This document shows, one piece after another, positions 2,785-44,920 of a stretch of DNA of 45,118 nt. Source of the stretch: a virus; IMG/VR virus record IMGVR_UViG_3300027896_000074, positions 1 through 45,118 of that record. One strand, written 5' to 3'. A model generated the notes under the pieces. The model searched no databases. It saw only the letters and a list, made by a program, of their open reading frames with translations, and had not been told where the DNA came from. Numbering within the stretch: position 1 is the stretch's first letter; each line of letters starts with the position of its first letter. The position numbers and the translations under genes are program-made.

Positions 2785-3591
2785 ATGAACGAAACAATTA
2801 CTTATATGATATATAATTCTTCTGAAATTGAAAGATTCTGGAAAAATGTGATTAAAACTAGTGAATGTTGGAATTTTGCTAATCTTGATAGAAGTACTGG
2901 ATATGGAAGAATAGGAATCAAGAGAAATAATAAATGGAGACAAGAATATGCTCATCGTTTTTCCTATGAAATTCATAAAGAAAAAATTCCAAAGGGAATG
3001 CAAGTTGATCACTTGTGTAGAAATAGAGCTTGTGTAAATCCTAATCATCTTGAATTGGTTACTCAGAAAGAAAATCTTCTCAGGGGCGTAGGATTTCCTG
3101 CCCAAAATTTTAAAAAAACTCATTGTAAACGTGGGCATGAGTTTACTGAAGAAAATATTATAAAAACCAGGAATGGTAGATCTTGTAAAAAATGTCTGAT
3201 CTGGCTTAGAGAAGAGAAAAAGAAAGGCATCTCTCATAAGATTATTAAAAAAGAAAAAAATATTAAAAGTCCAATTGTAGAGAGAAGTGATTATGAAACT
3301 CATTGTTACAATGGACATGAGTATACTAAAGATAATCTTTATATTAATAAGAAAGGTTATAGAGAATGCAGAATTTGTACTAGAGAATATGTAAAGAAAT
3401 ATAGGATTAAGAGTGACCCCAATAGAGGCAATCTTTCGGGACATGAACTTAATGCTCTTAAAACTCATTGTAAAAATGGACATGAATATAATAAAAAAAA
3501 TACTTATACTCATAACGGAAGTCGTTTTTGTAAAACTTGTGCGAGAATAAATTCTGTAAAAAATTCTAAACTTAGAAAAATTCATAAATAA
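2785..3591 (+). CDS. HNH homing endonuclease with three zinc-finger-like repeats
   Basis: A 268-residue protein on the strand opposite to its neighbours. An HNH core lies at about residues 50-95: AHRFSYEIH, then VDHLCRNRACVNPNHLELV, giving the conserved D-H, the N and the final H plus zinc-binding Cys. Three similar modules follow (about residues 111-137, 172-198 and 229-255), each with the pattern THC-x2-GHE, an asparagine and a C-x2-C pair, probably zinc-binding DNA-recognition units. The gene sits between the gp48-like gene and the large fibre gene, where free-standing phage homing endonucleases often insert. Its start lies 15 bases from that of the divergent fibre gene. Confidence 0.85.
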   Translation: MNETITYMIYNSSEIERFWKNVIKTSECWNFANLDRSTGYGRIGIKRNNKWRQEYAHRFSYEIHKEKIPKGMQVDHLCRNRACVNPNHLELVTQKENLLRGVGFPAQNFKKTHCKRGHEFTEENIIKTRNGRSCKKCLIWLREEKKKGISHKIIKKEKNIKSPIVERSDYETHCYNGHEYTKDNLYINKKGYRECRICTREYVKKYRIKSDPNRGNLSGHELNALKTHCKNGHEYNKKNTYTHNGSRFCKTCARINSVKNSKLRKIHK

Positions 3592-13644: not shown

Positions 13645-14385
13645 TCAATTCACATGTATTTCGTCTTCTACTTCCGTTTGCACTGGATTGATTTTATTAT
13701 TTGCATCAATACCTTGATAAACTCCTAAGTGACCGTCGGCAGCTGCACCACCAATCCAGTAGAGATCACTTAAAGAAACTTCGAATGGTTTACCTTTTGT
13801 TCTATATTCATATTCCAATGCTCGATACCATGCTCTTAGATCAATTCTATATTGCACATTTAAGATTGTAACTGGGATTAGTTCGTCGCCTAGAATTCCC
13901 TCAGTGTTAGGTATCCAACTCAAAGTCTTACCGTACTCATTTAGTCCGTAGACTTTGCAATCTCTTTGTACGAAGTAAATTTCATCAAGCATTTGTTGGA
14001 CGTAATCACTTGCGAAAAAGTTTTCAATGATACCTTTGAATGCTACTTCAGTTCTTCGATAGTCACCTCGACGAGCACTTGGTGGCCAGAAAATTTGAAA
14101 CCCTATTGTTCCACGTAGAAATGCTTGATCAGAATCTTTTGTTTCTGATTCTGATTCAAATATATTAATCGCTGGTAATTGTCTGATAGACCAATCAAAG
14201 CGAGCGTAGTCTGCCCAACGTTGTTGATCGTTTTCTTTTGTATATGGACCAAATATAGATATCATTCCTGGGATCTTGGAGAGTTGGAGTAAGGTTTTAG
14301 GTACTAGATCTTCTCCAGGACCAGTGAGGAATAACTCATCTAGTTTTGATTGTTTGATTACATTCCCAAATTTTGATCCACTCAT
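13645..14385 (-). CDS. Tail terminator / neck protein candidate
   Basis: A 246-residue protein between the gpG-like and sheath genes, where Mu has gp37 (tail terminator). It is larger than Mu gp37. The central part (FDWSIRQLPAINIFES, GFQIFWPPSARRGDYRR) resembles terminator-like proteins that bind the end of the tube. The name rests on position more than on motif. The preceding gene's stop and this gene's start share a base. Confidence 0.6.
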   Translation of the reverse strand: MSGSKFGNVIKQSKLDELFLTGPGEDLVPKTLLQLSKIPGMISIFGPYTKENDQQRWADYARFDWSIRQLPAINIFESESETKDSDQAFLRGTIGFQIFWPPSARRGDYRRTEVAFKGIIENFFASDYVQQMLDEIYFVQRDCKVYGLNEYGKTLSWIPNTEGILGDELIPVTILNVQYRIDLRAWYRALEYEYRTKGKPFEVSLSDLYWIGGAAADGHLGVYQGIDANNKINPVQTEVEDEIHVN

Positions 14386-14972
14386 TAGATCTCCTTAAAG
14401 ATGATTTTGGAGATCACTGCTGCAAAACGTTTCATTACATAATTTTGTAGCTTGTTTTTCCATTCATCTCTAATGATTAGGAATTCTCTTTTTGGAATTT
14501 TCTTTTTGGGATCACCTTTGTTATGGATAGCTGCATATGAAAGATCAGTACCCCAGATGATATTGTTACCTTCGACTTTATAAATGTTACCGCCCTGACT
14601 CTTTTTATTACTTCCAGAGAAGTTTGGAGTGGTAGCAGTCTTCATTAGAAGTCCAGTACGTCTCAGTATTTTCCTGTAAGGAGGACTATCACTATCCTTG
14701 CGTGCTTTCTTTTCATGAGCGAGGAGTTCGGCGTCACTCATGTTTGCTATAGATTTTTGCATCTTTTTAGAGAGTGACATTCTGATAGTCGATGCTTTTA
14801 AAGGGGTCCATCCTGGACCTTCTTTTGCAAAATTATCCGCTATGGCCTGACCGATTATTGCAGCGATTGCCTTCTCCTGCGGTATTTGATTAAATTGTTG
14901 TTTGATTGCAGGATCCTCAAATTTTAAAATTAATTTTTCAAAGTATGACATATCAATTTTAAATGATGGCAT
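14385..14972 (-). CDS. Virion morphogenesis protein (Mu gpG-like)
   Basis: A 195-residue protein with the family hallmark of the phage virion morphogenesis / gpG group: an N-terminal helix (SYFEKLILKFED), then EGPGWTPLKASTIRM at about residues 51-65. The later lysine-rich region ends with an IHNKGDPKKKIPKREFL motif, also typical. These proteins help join head to tail or complete the tail end. It is coupled at both ends by one-base overlaps. Confidence 0.85.
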   Translation of the reverse strand: MPSFKIDMSYFEKLILKFEDPAIKQQFNQIPQEKAIAAIIGQAIADNFAKEGPGWTPLKASTIRMSLSKKMQKSIANMSDAELLAHEKKARKDSDSPPYRKILRRTGLLMKTATTPNFSGSNKKSQGGNIYKVEGNNIIWGTDLSYAAIHNKGDPKKKIPKREFLIIRDEWKNKLQNYVMKRFAAVISKIIFKEI

Positions 14973-15577
14973 TACAATCCCCCTAGTCCTCGTGTGCGTG
15001 TATAAGACCTAGCAGGGTTATTTATTTCATCTAATGCATATGAGACAGGATCAAGATGACTTGCATCGGTATTGATAATCATCCCACGATAACCATCGTC
15101 AGCTTCTTTATTTGTTGGGGCCAGCAATACATCGTCTAATGGAGGGGAGACTTTAAAGCGGTCTATCTTCTCATTTTCACCTATCTGATCACGACCAAGT
15201 AAGCGCATGATATATGTCGAATATTCTTTTTGAAGATTAGACATATAGTCTTCTGCGTTAACATGCGTACCACGTCCGAAGTCTGTTTGAAGTATGTGCA
15301 CGACACACATATAATCAACTGCGACACGTAGCGCACGTTTAGAGTGATCAGGTAGATCACAATACTGACCTGTTCGTTTTGATTGAAAAGGGATTGAGTA
15401 TCGTGATCGTAGATCCTGTTCGACTTTCGTTTCAGCATCAACAATGAGTTGAGACAAGAGAATGTCAGGCAACTCTCCATCTAGTAATTCAGGAGAAGAT
15501 TGAAACTGCACTTTATTTGCCAATCTAATTTTGACGCTATCGAAGGTCGTATAAATTGGTTGATAAAGTGCAGTCAT
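14972..15577 (-). CDS. Head-tail connector, Mu gp36 (DUF1320)-like
   Basis: A 201-residue helical protein with VKIRLANKVQFQ near the start and IVDAETKVEQDLRSRYSIPF at about 45-65, a pattern typical of gp36-like connectors that begin a helix bundle at the portal. Position between the capsid and gpG genes agrees. The C-terminal ~50 residues are less ordered. Confidence 0.75.
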   Translation of the reverse strand: MTALYQPIYTTFDSVKIRLANKVQFQSSPELLDGELPDILLSQLIVDAETKVEQDLRSRYSIPFQSKRTGQYCDLPDHSKRALRVAVDYMCVVHILQTDFGRGTHVNAEDYMSNLQKEYSTYIMRLLGRDQIGENEKIDRFKVSPPLDDVLLAPTNKEADDGYRGMIINTDASHLDPVSYALDEINNPARSYTRTRGLGGL

Positions 15578-19983: not shown

Positions 19984-21953
19984 ATTCTATAGTTTGGTGG
20001 CAGTTGATCTTCAGTATCAGAAGATGGTTGCTTATTAGGCTCGCTCCCTTCTGCACTTTCTGGATCAGTCTTTACGTTATTGCCTTTTGAAGGTGCTTTA
20101 CTAACTTTTCCCTTTGGAATTTTGTTAGCAACAGACTTCGGAGGAATAGCGTTAGGGACAGGTTTGTTAGTAGGTTGGGTAGGTGTTTGGGTAGCAGGTA
20201 CAAAACTTTCATCACCAAGGATAGCGTTTGCTTGGTCTTCAGTCATACTGAATGAAGACATAATGATTGCTACTGCACTACTACGAGGTATCTCTTTTAA
20301 AGCTGCCTTCTCAATTACTTCGATTAATGAACTGACTTGAGCACCGTTTAGAGCATTTTCTGAGGGAGTAATAGTACCAATGTTTTCTTGAACTGATTGG
20401 TCAGGAGAGTTGGGAGTGGAGACATTGATAGGTTCATTATTATCTGTGTCAGCATCTTCCCCTAGAGTATTCTCTTCTGAAAAATTTTGATCGTTTTTGG
20501 TCTTAAGCATTCCCATTTTTTCACGGACGTAGTCAAAGTCTTGCTGAGAATTAGGGGCCATATAACCAGTTTCAGTTAGATTACGGTAGATGTTTGATAA
20601 CTTCTCCATTACTTCAGGATCATATTCTTCTAAAAGAAACTCACCACATCCATGCTTCTCCCAATAATGCTTAGGGAAGTTATATGCGATGATCTTTTTA
20701 ATGAATTGATCAAGAATACTTTGCTTGTAAACTTTGAGCTTGCCGTCGATCGTTTGTTGAAAAATCTTGTGATGCTCATTACCAAGTGCGAATGATCCTG
20801 CACCGTCACCTGCACTCATCACGAGTGGAGGGATTAGTAGTGAACGCATCAAAGCTCGATTGAAGTAATCGATACCATCTTTATAGATATTCATGTCCCC
20901 TTGGACTTGAATAGCCTCGACGTCGTAAATTTCACCTTTGCGACCTGGTAGCACGATGAATGAAGAGTTATGGATCTTGGAAAAGATATTAGACATTGCT
21001 AAGTCAGCACGTCCTAATCCTTGATCAACTCTCCCGTCCGCAGTAGTTTGAGTCATTAGAGTTTCATTTGGTGCAGCATATCCCACTACTAATGGCGTCC
21101 CTTTTCTATCTGCAGCTACTAACCACATATGAAGAAATGCATCCTTCATAACCCAGTTTTTATATGCACGACGCAAAATAGATCGACCATATGGATTAGC
21201 AAATTTTCCTGTACTACTTGAGCGTAGCAAAATCATCTTATGCTTTGGTATCTTTACGGTGAGATAGGTGAGATCGGCAGCTATTCGAACAGGATAGGGA
21301 TAGTCTCCAATGCTTGCATATAGATCAGGTCTAAAACCATCTAGCTCTTGATTGACGACACCCATGTATGAATTGAAAAATGTATTATGGAATCTTTGGT
21401 ATTGATACACTCCGTCGTGTAACACTTCACCATGTCTATTCACTGCGAAGACAATTGTAAGTGGTGGATATGTTACAAGTTTTCTAGGAATGAAAGCAGG
21501 AGCACCGTCGAAACTATTGTTATAATCCCATATCTGTTCGGTAGCAGAAAACCCTGCCCACTCTGCTGAAAACATTTCATCAAGGTTTTCATGCCAGCTA
21601 CCTTCCATCTGCCCTAGCGCACGACGTACAAATTCTTGTATCTCTTTCACAGGATGTTTGTATTCACCGAATCGAGCAATCAATGCTAAGTTAAGAAAGT
21701 CTATCCCTGCTCCAACTGTTTCATCGGTGTCAATGATTCGCTTATAAGTTTCGACACTCACAGTCGAAGGGTTAGCGATAAATCGACTCAGTGAGCCGTA
21801 GAGCTGGGGCACAACAGTGCCCTCTTGCGTCTGTTCTAACTCTAATCTAGTCAGCTCATCGTACCGATTTCTAAGTTCTGTCTTTATATTGGGCGGGACG
21901 TCATCTAAGAAATCTAAGAGTGAAGATGATTGTGTACTAGGTAGTGTTGACAT
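19980..21953 (-). CDS. Portal protein, Mu gp29 (DUF935)-like
   Basis: A 657-residue protein. The core (TYKRIIDTDETVGAGIDFLN, ILRRAYKNWVMKDAFLHMW, and the later KVYKQSILDQFIKKII) fits the Mu-like portal family; about 130 C-terminal residues are a low-complexity Pro/Asn tail. It makes the DNA gate of the head and docks the terminase. GGGAG lies about 8 bases before ATG. Immediately upstream an HNH gene on the other strand separates it from the earlier head genes, and the region before that contains a start that mimics its own (MATLPS versus MSTLPS). Confidence 0.88.
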   Translation of the reverse strand: MSTLPSTQSSSLLDFLDDVPPNIKTELRNRYDELTRLELEQTQEGTVVPQLYGSLSRFIANPSTVSVETYKRIIDTDETVGAGIDFLNLALIARFGEYKHPVKEIQEFVRRALGQMEGSWHENLDEMFSAEWAGFSATEQIWDYNNSFDGAPAFIPRKLVTYPPLTIVFAVNRHGEVLHDGVYQYQRFHNTFFNSYMGVVNQELDGFRPDLYASIGDYPYPVRIAADLTYLTVKIPKHKMILLRSSSTGKFANPYGRSILRRAYKNWVMKDAFLHMWLVAADRKGTPLVVGYAAPNETLMTQTTADGRVDQGLGRADLAMSNIFSKIHNSSFIVLPGRKGEIYDVEAIQVQGDMNIYKDGIDYFNRALMRSLLIPPLVMSAGDGAGSFALGNEHHKIFQQTIDGKLKVYKQSILDQFIKKIIAYNFPKHYWEKHGCGEFLLEEYDPEVMEKLSNIYRNLTETGYMAPNSQQDFDYVREKMGMLKTKNDQNFSEENTLGEDADTDNNEPINVSTPNSPDQSVQENIGTITPSENALNGAQVSSLIEVIEKAALKEIPRSSAVAIIMSSFSMTEDQANAILGDESFVPATQTPTQPTNKPVPNAIPPKSVANKIPKGKVSKAPSKGNNVKTDPESAEGSEPNKQPSSDTEDQLPPNYRI

Positions 21954-21982
21954 TAATATGCTCCCGTATTACTGTGTATCAA

Positions 21983-22771
21983 ATGAAAAAAACAACTATT
22001 GAATTTTTGCTTAAATATCTTGAATTTGTGCCGAAAGAAGGAAGATTTATTCGTAATGATGGTCCGTTCAAAGGTAAGATTGCTGGTAGTTATATGAAGA
22101 ATGGATACAGAGAAGTTTCCATTGTTTTGAATAGGAAGAGATATAGGGCGTATGAACATCAACTTGTTTGGTATCTCTTTCACAAGAGTCTTCCAAAATA
22201 CATTAATCATATTAATGAAAAATTTGATGACAATAGGATAGATAATCTCACAGAGGCCTACCCTCTTGTTGAAACAAACGGTCAACCAATTAATGAAGAT
22301 ATTTTGATCAAGTATATTCTTACTAAAATCGAATATGTCCCTGCTGAAAATTTTTTTATATGGAAAGAGAATAGACAGAAAAAAACAAAAGGAAATAGGG
22401 CAGGAGATATGAGTAATGCTGGATACTGGAGAATTAAATTTAGATTCAACAGAGTGCATCACCATGTTTTTGAACACCGTCTTATTTGGTATATTAATCA
22501 TGGATATACTCCGAATGAAATAGACCATATAAATGGGATTAGAGATGACAATAGAATAGAGAATTTAAGAAATACCAATCGAACTGGTAATGCTAGGAAT
22601 TTAAAAGTGCATCGTGATGGTAAATTATGGGGAGTTTCATGGGAGAATAATAAATGGCGTGCCCGTTTTCGACATGGGAAGAAACTTATCCATGTAGGTA
22701 TTTTTGATTCAAAATTCAAAGCATATAGAGCGGTAATAAAAAAAGCAAAAGAACTTAATATATCAATTTGA
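21983..22771 (+). CDS. HNH homing endonuclease with tandem HNH-like units and AP2-like end
   Basis: Start chosen at 21983 (MKKTTIEF, 262 residues); the frame is open further upstream into the portal start. It has two copies of the same unit. The second (EHRLIWYINHGYTPNEIDH then NGIRDDNRIENL) has the intact D-H, N and R residues. The first (EHQLVWYLFHKSLPKYINH, DDNRIDNL) has N-H in place of D-H, so it may be inactive. The last ~55 residues (GVSWENNKWRARFRHGKK, then HVGIFDSKFKAYRA) form an AP2-like DNA-binding domain. Opposite strand and position in a structural cluster are typical of a mobile homing gene. Confidence 0.85.
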   Translation: MKKTTIEFLLKYLEFVPKEGRFIRNDGPFKGKIAGSYMKNGYREVSIVLNRKRYRAYEHQLVWYLFHKSLPKYINHINEKFDDNRIDNLTEAYPLVETNGQPINEDILIKYILTKIEYVPAENFFIWKENRQKKTKGNRAGDMSNAGYWRIKFRFNRVHHHVFEHRLIWYINHGYTPNEIDHINGIRDDNRIENLRNTNRTGNARNLKVHRDGKLWGVSWENNKWRARFRHGKKLIHVGIFDSKFKAYRAVIKKAKELNISI

Positions 22772-26453: not shown

Positions 26454-26482
26454 ATAGTACATAGCGGAAAGCGTTTGATCAA
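26454..26482 (-). promoter_or_regulatory. Candidate sigma70-type promoter
   Basis: Minus-strand TTGATC (26482-26477) and TACTAT (26459-26454) with a 17-base spacer, ending about 20 bases before the 26432 gene. Four of six bases match at each box. Only a candidate. Confidence 0.4.
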
Positions 26483-27897
26483 TTGAATATCACACCGCTA
26501 CCATGTCCAGATATTGGTTGAGTGAAAGGCATTGCTTTACGTAACTCCATAAGAGCGTAAGCAAATGCATCGACTATATCATCGTGAGGTGCATAGGGGA
26601 ATGAGCATAACTCATTAATAAAGTCGTTAACCCATGGCGCTATAGAAGGATCAGGTAAGTAGACATTACCAGCTTCGACATCGGGCGATACCGCATTTGC
26701 TCGAAACACTTTATCTTTTGTAGGGGTAACTAATACTAATCCTGAAATACTCTTTTTAAGAGTGTCTACAATAGGTGAACCGTTTGCTTTATCTTCTACA
26801 ATTTTCTTATGAGCATTCTTCCATTTTGCTGATAGAGCTACTACTGCCTGACATGCTGAAGGGAATGACATTCTATCTCTTACCATATCTAGTACATACT
26901 TCTCTGATCCAACTCTCCCCATGACCATTCCTACAGTATAGTCAGATGTATCTTTCTCCTTTACAGCAAAGTCCCAGGCCATAACTGTTTGATGCATATT
27001 TGCTGGTAATTCTCTATAGAACTTAAACCATGACCTTTTGAATAGAGCACCTTCAGCAGGAGCAGGGGATTGCATATATTGTCCTGAAAAAGTTTTATTA
27101 TCAGATGCTTTGATTGCCATGAGTTGATTGTAATCATGTTTGAGAGGCCATAACGGAGAGTTGTTTTCATCAAGTGCGGGGAGTGAAAGGTGAGTCCACT
27201 TTTCTCCTGTACCTCCACCCAAGCAATAACCTGTCATATCCATTTCATGTAAGCGTTGCATGATTATAATGATAGGGGTTTTCTTAGGATTATTGAGACG
27301 TGAGAGAATTGTATTATTGAGACGCTCGTTTGTTTTGCGACGAATTTCATCACTATATGCTTCAGAGGGTTTTTGCGGATCATCTATAACAATGCATCCT
27401 CCAAACGAATCATCTGTGACTCCAGCACCAAAACCTGTGATAGATCCGGCAGTACCCGTCGCATATAATCCTCCTCCTTGAGTTGTATACCACTTTGCTT
27501 TTGAATCACTATCCGTCTTGGTATCAAATGACCAGTATGATTGATACCAATCTGATTTAATGTCTTCACGTATCTGAGAAGAGTTATCTAGTGCAAGCAT
27601 GTCTGAATAGGAGAGATGAATGAATTTCGAGTGAGGTACTTTTGCTAAACACCACTCGATGAAACATTTGACTGCAAGCTCAGTCTTACTATAGCGTGGA
27701 GCTATATTAATAATGAGTCGAGTTATCTCTTGATTGAATACTCGCTCTAAGTATTCACAAATTACAGTATGGTGATGATTAACAATGAAGTCTTTCCCTG
27801 TCTTCTGTTTGAACGACCACTTAACATATTCCAAGAGAGAATCTTCAAGATTACGCTTAGCAAGTTCTTTCTTTATCAATTCTTCTGGAATAAACAT
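26479..27897 (-). CDS. terL: Terminase large subunit
   Basis: The ATG at 27897 gives 472 residues; a TTG six bases earlier is possible. It is the ATP-driven DNA packaging motor and nuclease. A Walker A-like motif (APRYSKTEL, about 66-74), a Walker B (GGCIVIDDPQKP, about 165-176) and a motif-III-like region (PIIIIMQRLHEMD) are visible. The C-terminal nuclease domain begins with MAWDFAVKEKDTSDY (about 300-315), holding the first catalytic Asp, and ends with DDIVDAFAYAL. The layout fits Terminase_6 / Mu-P22-type motors. The small subunit gene is directly upstream. Confidence 0.93.
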   Translation of the reverse strand: MFIPEELIKKELAKRNLEDSLLEYVKWSFKQKTGKDFIVNHHHTVICEYLERVFNQEITRLIINIAPRYSKTELAVKCFIEWCLAKVPHSKFIHLSYSDMLALDNSSQIREDIKSDWYQSYWSFDTKTDSDSKAKWYTTQGGGLYATGTAGSITGFGAGVTDDSFGGCIVIDDPQKPSEAYSDEIRRKTNERLNNTILSRLNNPKKTPIIIIMQRLHEMDMTGYCLGGGTGEKWTHLSLPALDENNSPLWPLKHDYNQLMAIKASDNKTFSGQYMQSPAPAEGALFKRSWFKFYRELPANMHQTVMAWDFAVKEKDTSDYTVGMVMGRVGSEKYVLDMVRDRMSFPSACQAVVALSAKWKNAHKKIVEDKANGSPIVDTLKKSISGLVLVTPTKDKVFRANAVSPDVEAGNVYLPDPSIAPWVNDFINELCSFPYAPHDDIVDAFAYALMELRKAMPFTQPISGHGSGVIFN

Positions 27898-27906
27898 AAT
27901 CAAAGT

Positions 27907-29828: not shown

Positions 29829-30242
29829 TCAAACATCGATAAAAATTTTCTCTATCTTGATTGGTCTATCCATTTCAATTTTCACACCATTAGGTGACAT
29901 ATGATTATCATCTAGAAATACTTGGCATAAAGTATGTGAGGCAAGAATTGGTGACCGTTTATCAATTTGCTTTGTTGCAATTTCCGCTGCATTGTCGCCA
30001 TGACCCCATGTGTTTATCCATAACCAGTATCTCTTTTTAGTAGTCTCTGCTTTAGGTTTAGGAGCATCGAATGAGCATTTCTTGTGAATGTCACGCCATG
30101 TTTTCCAGTGAGCATCTTCCTTGAATTTTATCTTTAAGCACTTACCACCATCGGTTATATATTTGCCTGAGACAGTCACTAGCTCATCTTTATAGTAGAA
30201 AGTCGTATCAATATTAATCTTGTGATAATCTTCCATTAACAT
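29829..30242 (-). CDS. Hypothetical protein in the ParB-glycosyltransferase operon
   Basis: A 137-residue protein not recognised. A beta-rich first half (DTTFYYKDELVTVSGKYI) precedes a segment WLWINTWGHGDNAAEIA. Its start overlaps the upstream gene's stop. It may act with the modification genes, from context only. Confidence 0.6.
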   Translation of the reverse strand: MLMEDYHKINIDTTFYYKDELVTVSGKYITDGGKCLKIKFKEDAHWKTWRDIHKKCSFDAPKPKAETTKKRYWLWINTWGHGDNAAEIATKQIDKRSPILASHTLCQVFLDDNHMSPNGVKIEMDRPIKIEKIFIDV

Positions 30243-30538
30243 TCTGATACCCTCTTATCCTTTAAATATTTATATATCCTTATTATCGAATGACATTGGT
30301 ACTCAGTGATTGGGTTTGGTTGGCAATAAACTTTTTTTAAAAAGTCATGTTGATCTTTATATTTTTTGACGATGATTGCACATCTAAAACGTAAGGCGTC
30401 AATGTCTGCTAACTGTTCTACCGTTTGATCTTTATCAATTTCTACATCTCTTACTTTGCTATTCCCACATGTATAGGTTGTTTTTTCTTTTACCCATTTC
30501 ATTTTTTTAAATAGAGTATCCCCATTTCCTATGTCCAT
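30236..30538 (-). CDS. Hypothetical protein, first in the ParB operon
   Basis: ATG at 30538 gives 100 residues with an AGAGG site six bases away; in-frame ATGs at 30556 and 30544 are alternatives. Basic, with a Cys pair (TYTCGNSKVRD ... RFRCAII). Not recognised. Upstream is the divergent promoter region with the cysteine peptidase gene. Confidence 0.6.
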   Translation of the reverse strand: MDIGNGDTLFKKMKWVKEKTTYTCGNSKVRDVEIDKDQTVEQLADIDALRFRCAIIVKKYKDQHDFLKKVYCQPNPITEYQCHSIIRIYKYLKDKRVSEC

Positions 30539-30593
30539 ATGCATCCTCTGATTCATCGTATCAGTTTCGTTTTAGTTTGTATTGAATGGACGC

Positions 30594-30622
30594 TTGCCAT
30601 GCTCATGGGGTAATCCTAAAAT
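30594..30622 (+). promoter_or_regulatory. Sigma70-type promoter of the cysteine peptidase gene
   Basis: TTGCCA (30594-30599), 17 bases, then TAAAAT (30617-30622). It lies about 50 bases before the ATG of the peptidase gene and gives that gene separate transcription from the surrounding minus-strand operons. Confidence 0.6.
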
Positions 30623-30673
30623 TAGTTCACTATTTAATAACAATAGTTGATTTAATAAGGAGTGTATACGAAT

Positions 30674-31726
30674 ATGAGAACTAATCTATTTCCTGGTACC
30701 TTGATCGCAATTTGTTTTATGTTGTTCTTGACAGGATGTGTTGACTCTCCAGTCAGTGAAGATCAGCATCCTGTCTCCCAAGTTATTAAGCGTTCATTTT
30801 TATCTGAGGCCTATATAAAACAAATGTTTGCGCTATCCCATAGTCACAAGATCACTGACTCAGAACAACTTTCATCTAGAGCGATGGAGAGAAAGAAGCA
30901 CCTTATTCCTACAAGTAAATTCTTCTCTGCAAAACAATTAGCAAAAAGAAAGCAATCACATATGCTCGCATACAAGGGAAAGGGATCAGTTGATTTACGT
31001 CAATACGATTCACCAGTTGAGAATCAATGGGATGGTACTTGCACTGCTCATGGGTTAAGGAATGTGATTGATAATGCTGGTCGTGTGCAAGTGTCTACTC
31101 GTCACGTATGGGATAAGTATCAAGTCTATTCATGTGAAGATGCAATCAACGCATGGTCAGGTGGTACTTGTGTTACCAACGTTTCTTCATGGCCTCACGA
31201 TAGTGTAACTCCTACTAGTGCAAAATATTTAGAACCTCTTAACTGTAATACCTTTTTGCGAGCATCAACTTATATTGACGATGATCTAGATAAAATGAGA
31301 GAAGCACTTGATAACAATCATCCAGTGTATCTAGGGATCACAGTTACAAATAGTATGATGAATTGTGATGCGATGTTAGTACCAACTTCAAAAGCAACAA
31401 CAGGTGGTCATGCACTTGCGATTGTAGGTTATAAAGATGATCCAGCAATCAAGGGTGGCGGTTACTTCATTATAAAAAATAGTTGGGGGACTGATTGCGG
31501 TGACAAGGGTTATCAATACGTTCCATTTTATTACTGCACTAGAAAAGATATGTACTGTGTTTTTTGGACTATTGATAAAGTTGAAACTAATAGTACCACA
31601 CCTGTGGTAACTCCGACTCCTTCTGATGTATCTACATGTTTAGAATGGGAAAGAATTTGGTACAAACCTTGGGATAAAAAATGTGTTAAGTGGAGTACTG
31701 AAATAAATGTTTTGAATAAAGATTAA
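30674..31726 (+). CDS. Papain-like (C1) cysteine peptidase, lipoprotein
   Basis: ATG at 30674 (350 residues) with GGAG 11 bases upstream. Residues 1-22 are a lipoprotein signal with a lipobox LTGC (Cys22). The catalytic region follows: SVDLRQYDSPVENQ, with Gln118 and GTC (Cys123), then TTGGHALAIVGY (His246) and IIKNSWGTDCGDKGY (Asn269). All four catalytic positions of the papain family are present; the Gln-to-Cys gap is one residue shorter than in papain. Extra Cys pairs suggest disulphides in the periplasm or on the surface. It is a lone plus-strand gene with its own promoter, like a phage moron. Role in host-surface change or exclusion of other phages is inferred. Confidence 0.87.
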   Translation: MRTNLFPGTLIAICFMLFLTGCVDSPVSEDQHPVSQVIKRSFLSEAYIKQMFALSHSHKITDSEQLSSRAMERKKHLIPTSKFFSAKQLAKRKQSHMLAYKGKGSVDLRQYDSPVENQWDGTCTAHGLRNVIDNAGRVQVSTRHVWDKYQVYSCEDAINAWSGGTCVTNVSSWPHDSVTPTSAKYLEPLNCNTFLRASTYIDDDLDKMREALDNNHPVYLGITVTNSMMNCDAMLVPTSKATTGGHALAIVGYKDDPAIKGGGYFIIKNSWGTDCGDKGYQYVPFYYCTRKDMYCVFWTIDKVETNSTTPVVTPTPSDVSTCLEWERIWYKPWDKKCVKWSTEINVLNKD

Positions 31727-31944
31727 TCTAAGTCCGCGAGCAATTGAACAACTCCATGATTATTTAGTTCACCTATCTTTTTTATTTCAAAACTATATAT
31801 CTCATTACAAAACGGGCAAAAGATTGCATCCTTCATTTTATTTTCTTGGAAGGCAATATTTCTTTTCAGCATCTCATCGTTACTAATTTTGCCTTGGCAA
31901 CCCTCGTGGGTTACTTGCATGTTCATCACTTTCATTTCGGCCAT
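31723..31944 (-). CDS. Small zinc-site protein
   Basis: ATG at 31944 (73 residues) with GAGG upstream. It has GCQ and CPFCNEIYSF, so one CxxC pair. It meets the peptidase gene tail to tail with a 4-base overlap. Unknown function. Confidence 0.6.
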   Translation of the reverse strand: MAEMKVMNMQVTHEGCQGKISNDEMLKRNIAFQENKMKDAIFCPFCNEIYSFEIKKIGELNNHGVVQLLADLD

Positions 31945-32155
31945 AAAATTTTTCCTCATGAATAACCTCCGCTTTTTCTAGGATATACTTCAAACTATTA
32001 TCTCTTAATTTTAGTCTGAAAATAATTTCATTAACCAGTGTTTTTATTCCAGTATCAGAAATTAAATTCAATTGAAGTCGTCCAGCTTCGCGAAGATTTT
32101 GGGTTAATATTTCTTCAAGATCTTTTACTTGTATATATTTCAATCGCGTATGCAT
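31883..32155 (-). CDS. Small helical protein, unknown
   Basis: ATG at 32155 (90 residues) overlaps the stop of the previous gene as TAATG. Its end overlaps the 31944 gene start by 62 bases, more than usual, so one of the two starts may be wrong. No family recognised. Confidence 0.5.
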   Translation of the reverse strand: MHTRLKYIQVKDLEEILTQNLREAGRLQLNLISDTGIKTLVNEIIFRLKLRDNSLKYILEKAEVIHEEKFYGRNESDEHASNPRGLPRQN

Positions 32156-37163: not shown

Positions 37164-38180
37164 TTATAGAGAGACATGACTTATTGTTTCTATTATATCA
37201 GGATCTCCAATTACAACTTCAGGTGCTCCACCTTTTCTTCCAGCAAGAGCATCGGCCTCTCTAGTTATGAATTCATGTCTACCTGGTTTAATTTTTGCAC
37301 GTTGAACCCAATCGATATCACTTAGTTGAGTGTTTGCTGGTAGTCCATATCTCTCAATAAAATCAGGATCTATTCTTGGTTTAGAACCCCCAATGATTGG
37401 ATTTTCTACTGCCCAAAATTGAGCATCCTTTCCTGTTGTTTGTATTCCATGTTTCCCTATCTTATACAGAGTCCCTCCATTAGCTGCATATAATTTTGCT
37501 GAAACTATTCCTTCTGATACATTTTGAACGGCCGTACCGTAAGGGGTTTTGACTTCCATAGTCCGAAATACTAACTGTGTTACTTTACTTGGAAAAGAAT
37601 AAGAACTTGAGCCGATTACACCTTCAGTAGCGAGTGAGATAAACCATCCTGGTATTTCATCGCGAATACCTTGAGGGAGCTTGTCATAAATTTTCATTGC
37701 TTGATCAAGATCATATTCTGCAAAAGCACAAAACATTTGGGAGTACTTACCCGCTGCGGTACAAATTCCTATAGAATGAGCTATATCTGAAACTATTGAA
37801 GGAAGATTTGATGAAAACTTTTGTTCCTCTTCTCTTTGAAAGGCCTCTCTCTCTTTTTCTTCTTTCAATTCTTGAGCTATTCGGGCAGTGGCCTCTCTAG
37901 TTTTTGCCTTTACTAACTCCATACATAAGTCGATGCATTCATCACACTCTTTGTTACACTGTATTGCTTCGGCCATACAAATGTTTGCACCATGTATATC
38001 TCCTGCATCGCAACAAGCGAGTGCTCTTGCTTTGCAAGCTGTGACTGTTCGATTGTGAATCGCTTCGCAACCTCTAACACATTCTTTTCCAATGGCCATA
38101 ATCCATGGTGGCGTTTCGTCTGCTGAATAGACTGAGAAATTTAGTAATAGAAATCCCATTACTACTAAAAGTAATTTCAT
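37164..38180 (-). CDS. Secreted Cys-rich protein with polymorphic-toxin-like end
   Basis: A 338-residue protein. Residues 1-20 are a Sec signal (cleavage near VYSA-DE). Ten Cys in residues 34-86 have a nearly symmetric spacing (C-x3-C, CC, C-x3-C-x2-C-x3-C), probably disulphide-linked helices. A coiled coil (88-122) and a middle domain follow. The end (about 228-338) has LYKIGKHGI, QFWAVENP, ERYGLP, EFITREA and GGAPEVVI. I recognise this pattern from the C-terminal toxin tips of Rhs and other polymorphic toxins, possibly ADP-ribosyltransferases. The family name is not certain. Ribosome site AAGGAG. Confidence 0.65.
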   Translation of the reverse strand: MKLLLVVMGFLLLNFSVYSADETPPWIMAIGKECVRGCEAIHNRTVTACKARALACCDAGDIHGANICMAEAIQCNKECDECIDLCMELVKAKTREATARIAQELKEEKEREAFQREEEQKFSSNLPSIVSDIAHSIGICTAAGKYSQMFCAFAEYDLDQAMKIYDKLPQGIRDEIPGWFISLATEGVIGSSSYSFPSKVTQLVFRTMEVKTPYGTAVQNVSEGIVSAKLYAANGGTLYKIGKHGIQTTGKDAQFWAVENPIIGGSKPRIDPDFIERYGLPANTQLSDIDWVQRAKIKPGRHEFITREADALAGRKGGAPEVVIGDPDIIETISHVSL

Positions 38181-39387: not shown

Positions 39388-39498
39388 CTATTTCTTTTTG
39401 AAGAGACTTTTAATTTGACCGCAGTAGTCAATCAGTTTGATCATTATAAAGAATACAGTCATAAAGAATAATGCCCTCAATCGTGCGACTCTCCTCAT
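39388..39498 (-). CDS. 36-residue membrane protein of the lysis cassette
   Basis: Starts at 39498, overlapping the transglycosylase stop as ATGA. MRRVARLR is a basic start, then ALFFMTVFFIMIKLIDYC is one membrane helix and KSLFKKK is a basic end. It could be a small holin or lysis regulator; no family known. Confidence 0.5.
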   Translation of the reverse strand: MRRVARLRALFFMTVFFIMIKLIDYCGQIKSLFKKK

Positions 39499-39983
39499 GA
39501 CTTATCCCCTGTAACTAATACTAAATTCTTTTTGAAGTTATTCACTGCTGTAGCATTTACATAGTGACCATCAACCTTTCTCACTGATCCCGCATTGTAT
39601 GCAGCATAAATATCCAATGGATCTTTAAGCCCTTGCTTAACTATGAGCGACTTAAGATAAGCTACACTCCACTTAAGATTTTCTTCAGGATCGATCAAAT
39701 ATGTACACCATCCTTTGAATCCAAGTGAGTATGCAGTAGCACCCATTATCTGACAGAGGCCCCAAGATGTCATTTGCATTGACTTCATAGTGACTGAATC
39801 ACAATAACAGTCACTGGAGAGTTGAGGGATGTTATACAACCAACAGTAGTTAACTTCATATTTGATCTTATATGGGTTGTAACTACTCTCAGTTAGCACC
39901 ACTGCATGTAATAGCATTAGATCAAAGTTATATTCCTTTGCGGTCGTCGCAATAATATTATCGTATTTCTTTGGTAATTCCAT
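39495..39983 (-). CDS. Lytic transglycosylase (SLT), endolysin
   Basis: A 162-residue SLT-domain protein. The catalytic Glu32 is in LTESSYNPY, followed by TSWGLCQIM (72-80) and YAAYNAGS near 125-133, the family motifs. It would cut peptidoglycan at lysis. No signal peptide, so a holin is needed. Ribosome site AGGAGAGTTG. Confidence 0.88.
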   Translation of the reverse strand: MELPKKYDNIIATTAKEYNFDLMLLHAVVLTESSYNPYKIKYEVNYCWLYNIPQLSSDCYCDSVTMKSMQMTSWGLCQIMGATAYSLGFKGWCTYLIDPEENLKWSVAYLKSLIVKQGLKDPLDIYAAYNAGSVRKVDGHYVNATAVNNFKKNLVLVTGDKS

Positions 39984-42706: not shown

Positions 42707-44920
42707 TTAATCTATACTGTTTACTTGAATCCAAGTTTCTGAAGCACCAGTATAAATACTCCTCGAAGAACCTATATCTGACCAAATTTGAACAGTGAAT
42801 GTATCTCCCGCATTTCCTGAAACATTAGCAATAACTGGATATATATTTGGATAAGCACCACTCGTAACAAAGTCTCTAGTATAACCAAGTATTGTTCCAG
42901 AGTTCGCAACACTTCCAGTATGAACTTCCATTGCCAAATTTTGACCGCCACTTGTGGCCGTTGTTTGTACCCATGAACTAGCAGCTATTTGAAACTTACC
43001 AGTTCTTGGTAGAGTTATTACTCCAGTGGAAGTGTTATAAATCCCGTGACTATCCCATTGTTTTGTTGGGGTTACCATTATGATTGAAGATGAAGATAAT
43101 GACTGTCCTGAATTTCCTGCATATCTACAACTTACTTTTTCATTTGCAGTAACAACAGCAGGACCTGACAATCGATTTACGTAAATATAATTGTCTTCAC
43201 CTATACCAGATAATGTCCTGTTCCCAGTAGCGGAACTTGCATATATCTGTATGTAGTCTCCAGCATTTAATTGAATTCCTGTATTCAATACTGCAACGTA
43301 TCTCTGATTAGTAGCAGTCGCTGGTCTGAATGTAAGTCCTCTAATATTTGTATAGACTCCATTCTTGTACAGATCTACTTCTAAAGAATCCTGCGTGGTA
43401 GCAGAGTCGGCGACTATTTGAGAATTTATACTATAGAATCCACTTGTAGGTGCTACATACTTCCAACTTCCACCCGTTGTAACTGCTGCGGATTGATCAA
43501 AAACTTTTGTATCAAAATTGATTAAAACTCCGCCACCAGATAATGTGGGAGTCGCTGTTGAATAATAATTAGAAGCAATAACTTTAGTATCAGTGTCACT
43601 AGACATTGCAGAGTTTGAAGACCAACCTACGATTGGAACAGATGCAAAAAATGAAATATAATTTCCTGCACCTGATACAGAAGAACCCGTTGCTGGTGCT
43701 ATAGGATTACTTGCAGTAACAACTCCAAAGTAAAGTGCGTTCTGAGTTGTTTGACCACTAGCTAATATTGGATTACTTGGGGAAGTCACATTGTATGAAT
43801 ATGATCCAACTTGAACGTTCATTCCAGATGCGACTGCTGGAATTTTTGTAATATCAGTTGATACGTTTGCATTGCCTCCTGCATATCCTAAAGTGAATGA
43901 TGCAACACTCCCTGTTGTAGTACCTGTTTCAAAAGATCCCATTACTTCTAACTTGTCACCAACTCTCCTGGAATAAAAATATACATTCGATGGTGTACCG
44001 AATCCTGTGAATGTTGGAGTATAAGCAACCCAGTCAGTCATCGCTGGACCACTCACTTGTACTTGAGGACCTACTGAGAAGTTATCTACATAAAATGAAT
44101 ACGCTCCCGCAGTAGCATTTATATTTATTAGAGCTAATTGATATTGAGTACTATTAGATGTTGTTTGAAATGTTATCTGTGTGGCCTTACCAATCCCAGT
44201 TCTTTGAACAGTGTTATAAGCACCTGCTGGCATAATCCATTGAGCATTTGTTACATCGTAAACCCATACTGCAAATGTATTTGTGCTTGTACCTGAGAAG
44301 TCAAAAGTCCCACTCATTGCTTGATAAGAAAAACTCACGGTCATCATTTTTGCTTGATCAGCAGAGTCTATATAGAAAGCATTAGAGACTAATAAGTCAC
44401 CTTGAGTTGATGCTGTAGATGACACTAGATTGCCGGAATATGACTTCTGAAGAGGTGTAGTTGTTGTTGCTGTAAGTGATAGGTTAGCATTCGCCGATGT
44501 CCCACCTGAGCTAGAACTGAATGCACTCCCTGCTGTAGCAACACCTGTAGGAAGAAAGTAACCATTCGCTGTAGAGAATGCTACGTGAGCAAGAGACCAA
44601 CCTGTTGTTGATCCTAACTCGAAGTCACCGTTACCAGTGTTAGCTGATCCGCCTGAAGTACTTGCAGTATATGCGGTTAAGTAATTTACTGATCCGCTAC
44701 CTCCGCCTCCTATCTGTCCGGCAGTGATTGCGCTGGAGAGTTGTTTGTTGATACCGTTTGCGGATACATAAATTTTTGTATCATTGATTAATTGTGAGAC
44801 TGTACCGCCTGCACCTGTTATGTCGCTAAGAGTCTTAACGTCTTCGTTTTGAATCTTTCGACTAGCGAATGCAGATGTAGTGAGTAATGTTAGGATCAGT
44901 ACGTAAAGAATGTTTTTCAT
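42707..44920 (-). CDS. Large secreted fibre-like protein with jelly-roll domains
   Basis: A 737-residue protein. Residues 1-19 are a Sec signal (ILYVLILTLLTTSAFA). A carbohydrate-binding-like region (about 115-285, with FELGSTTGWSLAHVAF) follows. Two beta jelly-roll, C1q-like units (near 470-595 and 610-737) have GGSWKYVAPTSGFYSINSQI and GKFQIAASSWVQTTAT as their starts. It is similar in type to phage receptor-binding proteins. It lies on the minus strand next to the 127-residue secreted protein. The reason for the signal peptide is unknown. Confidence 0.75.
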   Translation of the reverse strand: MKNILYVLILTLLTTSAFASRKIQNEDVKTLSDITGAGGTVSQLINDTKIYVSANGINKQLSSAITAGQIGGGGSGSVNYLTAYTASTSGGSANTGNGDFELGSTTGWSLAHVAFSTANGYFLPTGVATAGSAFSSSSGGTSANANLSLTATTTTPLQKSYSGNLVSSTASTQGDLLVSNAFYIDSADQAKMMTVSFSYQAMSGTFDFSGTSTNTFAVWVYDVTNAQWIMPAGAYNTVQRTGIGKATQITFQTTSNSTQYQLALININATAGAYSFYVDNFSVGPQVQVSGPAMTDWVAYTPTFTGFGTPSNVYFYSRRVGDKLEVMGSFETGTTTGSVASFTLGYAGGNANVSTDITKIPAVASGMNVQVGSYSYNVTSPSNPILASGQTTQNALYFGVVTASNPIAPATGSSVSGAGNYISFFASVPIVGWSSNSAMSSDTDTKVIASNYYSTATPTLSGGGVLINFDTKVFDQSAAVTTGGSWKYVAPTSGFYSINSQIVADSATTQDSLEVDLYKNGVYTNIRGLTFRPATATNQRYVAVLNTGIQLNAGDYIQIYASSATGNRTLSGIGEDNYIYVNRLSGPAVVTANEKVSCRYAGNSGQSLSSSSIIMVTPTKQWDSHGIYNTSTGVITLPRTGKFQIAASSWVQTTATSGGQNLAMEVHTGSVANSGTILGYTRDFVTSGAYPNIYPVIANVSGNAGDTFTVQIWSDIGSSRSIYTGASETWIQVNSID

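Follow-up and report, generated by a model that had tools for sequence, protein, structure and literature searches.

We found that the window, by which we mean the whole stretch of DNA analyzed here (45,118 bases, an entire IMG/VR record of a contractile-tailed phage), carries a gene for a papain-like (C1) peptidase, and both sequence and predicted structure support reading its product as an exported lipoprotein that has the papain fold and retains its active site, with activity suggested by fold and motifs. Phylogenetically, the peptidase belongs to a clade of exported C1 proteins that, among the sequences compared here, comprises Bdellovibrionota chromosomal copies and five unrelated phage contigs. 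We consider it reasonably probable that it is an envelope-anchored zymogen of the cathepsin type, captured by phages long ago from this Bdellovibrionota clade and used for accessory proteolysis at the cell surface.

The peptidase gene and its predicted product

The gene and its surroundings contained the following features (window coordinates, strand, basis of the assignment):

30594..30622 (+): promoter-like site TTGCCA-17-TAAAAT, 10/12 (P ~0.04 in the intergenic region; not above chance region-wide)
30657..30662 (+): ribosome-binding site AAGGAG, 11 nt 5' of the ATG (sequence)
30674..31726 (+): C1 (papain-like) peptidase lipoprotein gene, 350 aa (ORF, Pfam, PDB sequence match, predicted model)
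30674..30736 (+): predicted signal peptide, residues 1-21, hydrophobic core, then lipobox LTGC (sequence)
30737..30739 (+): Cys22, predicted lipidation site, +2 residue Val (sequence)
30809..30973 (+): candidate pro-region, residues 46-100, starting near the family motif FLSxxxI (structural alignment with cathepsin propeptides)
30974..31588 (+): catalytic domain, residues 101-305 (predicted model, structure alignment)
31025..31027 (+): Gln118, oxyanion-hole glutamine (sequence, alignment)
31040..31042 (+): Cys123, nucleophile (sequence, alignment)
31409..31411 (+): His246 (sequence, alignment)
31478..31480 (+): Asn269, within a KNSWG motif (sequence, alignment)
31589..31723 (+): C-terminal tail, residues 306-350, with the Cys/Trp motif CLEWERIWYKPWDKKCVKW, common only to the window, L002 and L003 (motif search)
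31723..31959 (-): convergent small gene, a neighbor and not part of the peptidase gene, its stop overlapping the peptidase stop by 4 bases (ORF list)

The reading frame was intact from its ATG to the stop at 31726, and an alternative GTG start at 30662 would lengthen the protein by 4 residues. A sequence-only reading of this DNA had placed a lipobox LTGC at Cys22, put Gln118, Cys123, His246 and Asn269 in papain-like motifs, and set the gene on the strand opposite to its neighbors; counting from the ATG at 30674 recovered every one of these positions exactly, and both flanking genes (30236-30556 and 31723-31959) lie on the minus strand, leaving the peptidase alone on the plus strand. A signal peptide followed by LTGC with Cys22 is the mark of a bacterial lipoprotein, the lipidation itself being predicted, and by the E. 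coli rule Val at +2 would probably sort the protein to the outer membrane.

The Pfam family Peptidase_C1 (PF00112) matched the protein at 2.7e-11 (44.4 bits against a curated cut-off of 20.7), the best solved relative by single sequence was xylellain (3ois, 2.8e-10), and a family-profile search of solved structures returned procerain, Der f 1 and cathepsins at about 1e-16 to 1e-21. An AlphaFold2 model built from 21 window and locus sequences reached a mean pLDDT of 79, rising above 90 over most of the catalytic part, and took the place of a first model from 5 sequences (mean pLDDT 54). Upon comparing the predicted structure with cathepsins, as the earlier reading had proposed, we obtained Z values of about 20-21 both to cathepsins and, in VIA-align, to the pro-forms of cathepsins L1, H and K, the latter over peptidase residues 46-307. 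Because the match to the pro-forms spans these residues, the stretch N-terminal to the catalytic domain is paired with the cathepsin propeptides; as the pro-region motifs ERFNIN and GNFD were absent from all 22 relatives in a regex search, the candidate pro-region is drawn from structure together with the shared FLSxxEI helix. Q118, C123, H246 and N269, in C1 order, were invariant across the 22 aligned relatives, so the loss of the active site that had been raised as an objection was seen in none of them. Profile score, the conserved Gln-Cys-His-Asn order and the papain fold of the predicted model together place the protein in PF00112.

Four further cysteines (C231, C275, C288 and C295) were nearly invariant among the aligned relatives; C231 and C275 were lost together in L012, and C288 and C295 lie near each other in the sequence. 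The pairs C231/C275 and C288/C295 are predicted to form two disulfides, as expected of an exported protein. That the peptidase instead works in the cytoplasm or in the virion, as for most phage C1 proteins, is highly improbable: it shares its fold with the xylellain-like phage group, yet the clear signal peptide and lipobox, the conserved disulfide-type cysteines and its placement in a separate clade all argue against such a location.

Relatives, origin and genomic setting

Full-length relatives were present in the phage contigs L002, L003 (192 kb) and L005, and a wider profile added L076. In bacteria, two peptide patterns run once across whole genomes yielded a single locus, in an Oligoflexia MAG, and on this one scan a restriction of the clade to Bdellovibrionota and their phages is only tentative. 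Matches at E <= 1e-15 occurred in 20 of 369 genomes of the same phylum (labeled Bdellovibrionota by the tree tool), most of them clearly of the exported type, and the chromosomal copies that we inspected were single genes amid housekeeping genes. In a tree of 40 sequences the exported proteins formed a clade (100/97), apart from the signal-less xylellain-like C1 proteins of phages; four plasmid or phage matches from other groups, when scored, were closer to a xylellain-like model than to that of the exported proteins. The earlier statement that C1 peptidases are rare in phages proved too strong, since 39 IMG/VR contigs carried one in a single scan and several are annotated among phage proteins, most of them without a signal peptide.

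Within the exported clade, the sequences mark the window, L002 and L003 as a lipoprotein lineage carried by phages, to which no host copy comes close. A lipobox combined with a Cys/Trp tail (of the type C-x-W-W-KKC-W) was common to these three and to no other ORF in the compared loci, the identity among their peptidases was only about 34-39%, and the best tree joined them at 66/94, which is not strong. L005 and L076 lack the lipobox, indicating that the family can do without the anchor. The phage copies clustered in the tree (0/500 shuffles) and a common origin of the five was not rejected (p-AU 0.59), so that several independent captures are not required. A recent capture was rejected on composition, as the peptidase is fully ameliorated and uses codons as the phage does (GC3 0.276 vs 0.272; codon-fit rank 26/34), and it is likewise opposed by the low identity both within the lineage and to the nearest chromosomal copies (36-46%); near-identical host genes, which had been suggested as a sign of recent capture without function, were not found. 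We infer that transfer ran from Bdellovibrionota chromosomes to phages: rather than being a phage invention, the peptidase would have been taken long ago from the exported C1 clade of these chromosomes, and its lipoprotein form with the Cys/Trp tail would now circulate among unrelated phages.

An old captured host gene might also persist as inert cargo under weak selection, and its absence from all related phages searched, along with the lack of a known partner in the window, fits such a fate. We nevertheless regard this as very improbable, because an intact frame, catalytic residues that stay invariant while the phage copies are about 35% identical to one another, and a common phage-specific tail need long purifying selection.

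The window encodes a large terminase, a Mu-like portal, capsid E, a protein with a weak tail-sheath match, baseplate J and a DNA-circularisation-type tail protein, and 12 contigs carry its capsid gene at 47-83% identity. Compared with related phages, the head and tail blocks were conserved, and the region of 27.9-42.7 kb, in which the peptidase lies, shared almost nothing. A family-profile search of 9 of the 12 capsid-sharing records (three of 44-49 kb; the records may be incomplete) detected no peptidase. From its sequence context, the peptidase is thus most likely an accessory, moron-like gene. The sequence-only reading had gone further and pointed to a moron with a promoter of its own and a 17-base spacer. 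The accessory position, the isolation on one strand and the absence from nine relatives bear out the first part; the promoter, real as a match, is marginal and suggestive only, and no terminator-like fold or site was found 3' of the gene. A match as good as TTGCCA-17-TAAAAT arose in 3.8% of shuffles of the 117-base intergenic region (P 0.038), and promoter-like sites between 29.0 and 33.0 kb were below expectation (14 observed vs 19.1 in shuffles). We consider the label moron-like fair, and a moron with its own promoter only a tentative reading.

Elsewhere in the window, two plus-strand genes interrupt the minus-strand late operon, namely 2785-3591, an HNH homing-type endonuclease, and 21944-22771, which resembles it by eye. 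The minus-strand gene 37164-38180 encodes an exported protein of 338 aa with a Cys-rich N-terminal half and without a Pfam, PHROG or PADLOC match. Clear Sec signal peptides also occurred on tail-fiber-like proteins of the tail operon (384-1301 and 42707-44920, both minus) and on such proteins in L142 (14964-17575), L144 (1-979), L146 (1355-4910) and L002 (7586-8887). A Sec signal is odd for virion proteins; these show 35-40% identity over about 150 aa with Bdellovibrionota fiber proteins and are reminiscent of the exported MAT fibers of Bdellovibrio (PMC10769870). A low-complexity Gln-Ser-His repeat ORF in the related phage L144 (5182-5667) is probably no gene but a repeat in the DNA. The large terminase (26479-27903) differs from that of L120 (G370) despite 84% capsid identity, indicating that phages of this group exchange their packaging genes.

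Placing the host by core genes failed, as the terminase showed about 43% identity to Bdellovibrionota proteins and 40-43% to those of other phages, i.e., no closer, and as sheath, portal and capsid had no match in the 369 Bdellovibrionota genomes; nor did the core genes reveal a Bdellovibrionota prophage of this kind. The host of the window phage probably, not certainly, belongs to Bdellovibrionota. To our knowledge, phages of this phylum have hardly been sampled.

Proposed role of the peptidase

Sec export, lipidation by Lgt and Lsp, and the activation of papain-type zymogens are established, and on these grounds we infer the lipidation, activity, maturation, location, timing and role of the peptidase as follows. 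Sec would export the protein, which would be lipidated at Cys22 and probably reside in the outer membrane (+2 Val), with the pro-region (about residues 46-100) shielding the active site. The Gln-Cys-His-Asn domain (residues 101-305, with two predicted disulfides) would turn active outside the cytoplasm, probably upon removal of the pro-region, and as the latter sits between anchor and enzyme, its removal may also detach the enzyme from the lipid anchor. An infected (or lysogenic) cell would in this way gain additional proteolytic capacity on or close to its surface.

As to what this proteolysis serves, we tentatively favor a contribution to the host's extracellular protein digestion, a reading that stands little apart from surface remodeling or exclusion. 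It is suggested by the kinship with exported Bdellovibrionota peptidases and by the 192-kb contig L003, in which the gene of an exported trypsin-like serine protease (14260-15138, plus strand) lies 3-4 kb from that of the C1 lipoprotein. The best known Bdellovibrionota members secrete many proteases (PMC7174725). The same kinship makes the host predation proposed in the sequence-only reading less arbitrary. In a bolder and quite unlikely version, the phages of Bdellovibrio-like predators share a mobile cathepsin zymogen tethered to the outer membrane, and its self-cleavage frees the protease into the prey-derived niche, where it would raise the amino-acid supply or open the bdelloplast for phage exit; if true, a self-releasing cathepsin zymogen would be a viral enhancer of bacterial predation.

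Surface remodeling, with superinfection exclusion or receptor shaving, would have the lipoprotein on an infected or lysogenic cell cleave the surface proteins that phages use. The peptidase is a lipoprotein and forms an isolated unit in an accessory region, and phage lipoproteins with such a role are known (PMC9586334, PMC3952083). Nevertheless, the scanned window proteins included no integrase or clear lysogeny cassette, and two phage relatives (L005 and L076) lack the anchor. The known superinfection-exclusion lipoproteins of phages are, moreover, binders and not proteases, which counts against this possibility; we hold it to be only slightly less probable than added digestion. A role as a defense system was rejected, as no PADLOC defense-system model matched.

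A late exported protease might instead act in lysis or escape, breaking envelope or prey-ghost proteins to aid release. In L002 and L076 the peptidase lies directly 3' of tail genes, beside small proteins with one TM and a common lipoprotein family, and an M15-like ORF, recognized by its motif by eye only, lies upstream in L076. However, neither Pfam nor PHROG supports the M15 assignment, in the window the late operon runs on the other strand and 8 kb separate the peptidase from the SLT endolysin (39495-39983), and in L005 and L003 the gene sits among early or metabolic genes, making a lysis function unlikely. The adjoining lipoprotein family has no database match (L002 11503-12180 and L076 3607-4248; 25% identity, E 3e-12); a scan for further copies returned only these two, from otherwise unrelated phages, and the idea that every phage copy sits in a conserved lysis cassette was rejected since the neighbor is common to L002 and L076 only.

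Comparison with known systems

The window peptidase shares with the C1A enzymes (papain and cathepsins L, H, K and S; PF00112) the order of Gln, Cys, His and Asn, the two-domain fold and a pro-region that aligned to pro-cathepsins, whereas its active site reads QWDGTCT and not QxxxCGSCW, it lacks ERFNIN and GNFD, and it adds a lipid anchor and a Cys/Trp tail. The active site is of the same prokaryotic type as that of xylellain from Xylella (3ois) and of the xylellain-like phage C1 proteins (L077-L100, FLC9 gp163 and the Sycamore cysteine protease), which by contrast have no signal peptides and form a separate clade (100/97). The exported chromosomal C1 proteins of Bdellovibrionota (L006 and L047-L062) are members of the same clade as the window peptidase, with signal peptides, four conserved non-nucleophile cysteines and the pro-region motif FLSxxEI; they differ by their 36-46% identity and a mostly missing lipobox, and several end in a beta-rich domain (with a weak pYEATS match in L012) rather than in the Cys/Trp tail.

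In the literature searched, we found no phage-borne, lipid-anchored, exported protease of the papain type. The presence of the same tail in three unrelated phages suggests that the peptidase gene has been retained for some function. By analogy only, it resembles the superinfection-exclusion lipoproteins T5 Llp and TP-J34 Ltp, likewise phage-encoded and displayed by the infected cell. Such phage lipoproteins block entry by binding, whereas the window peptidase appears from its sequence to be an enzyme. Its link to Bdellovibrionota makes the gene a concrete, testable candidate for how a phage could alter a predatory bacterium, in its envelope or in its digestion.
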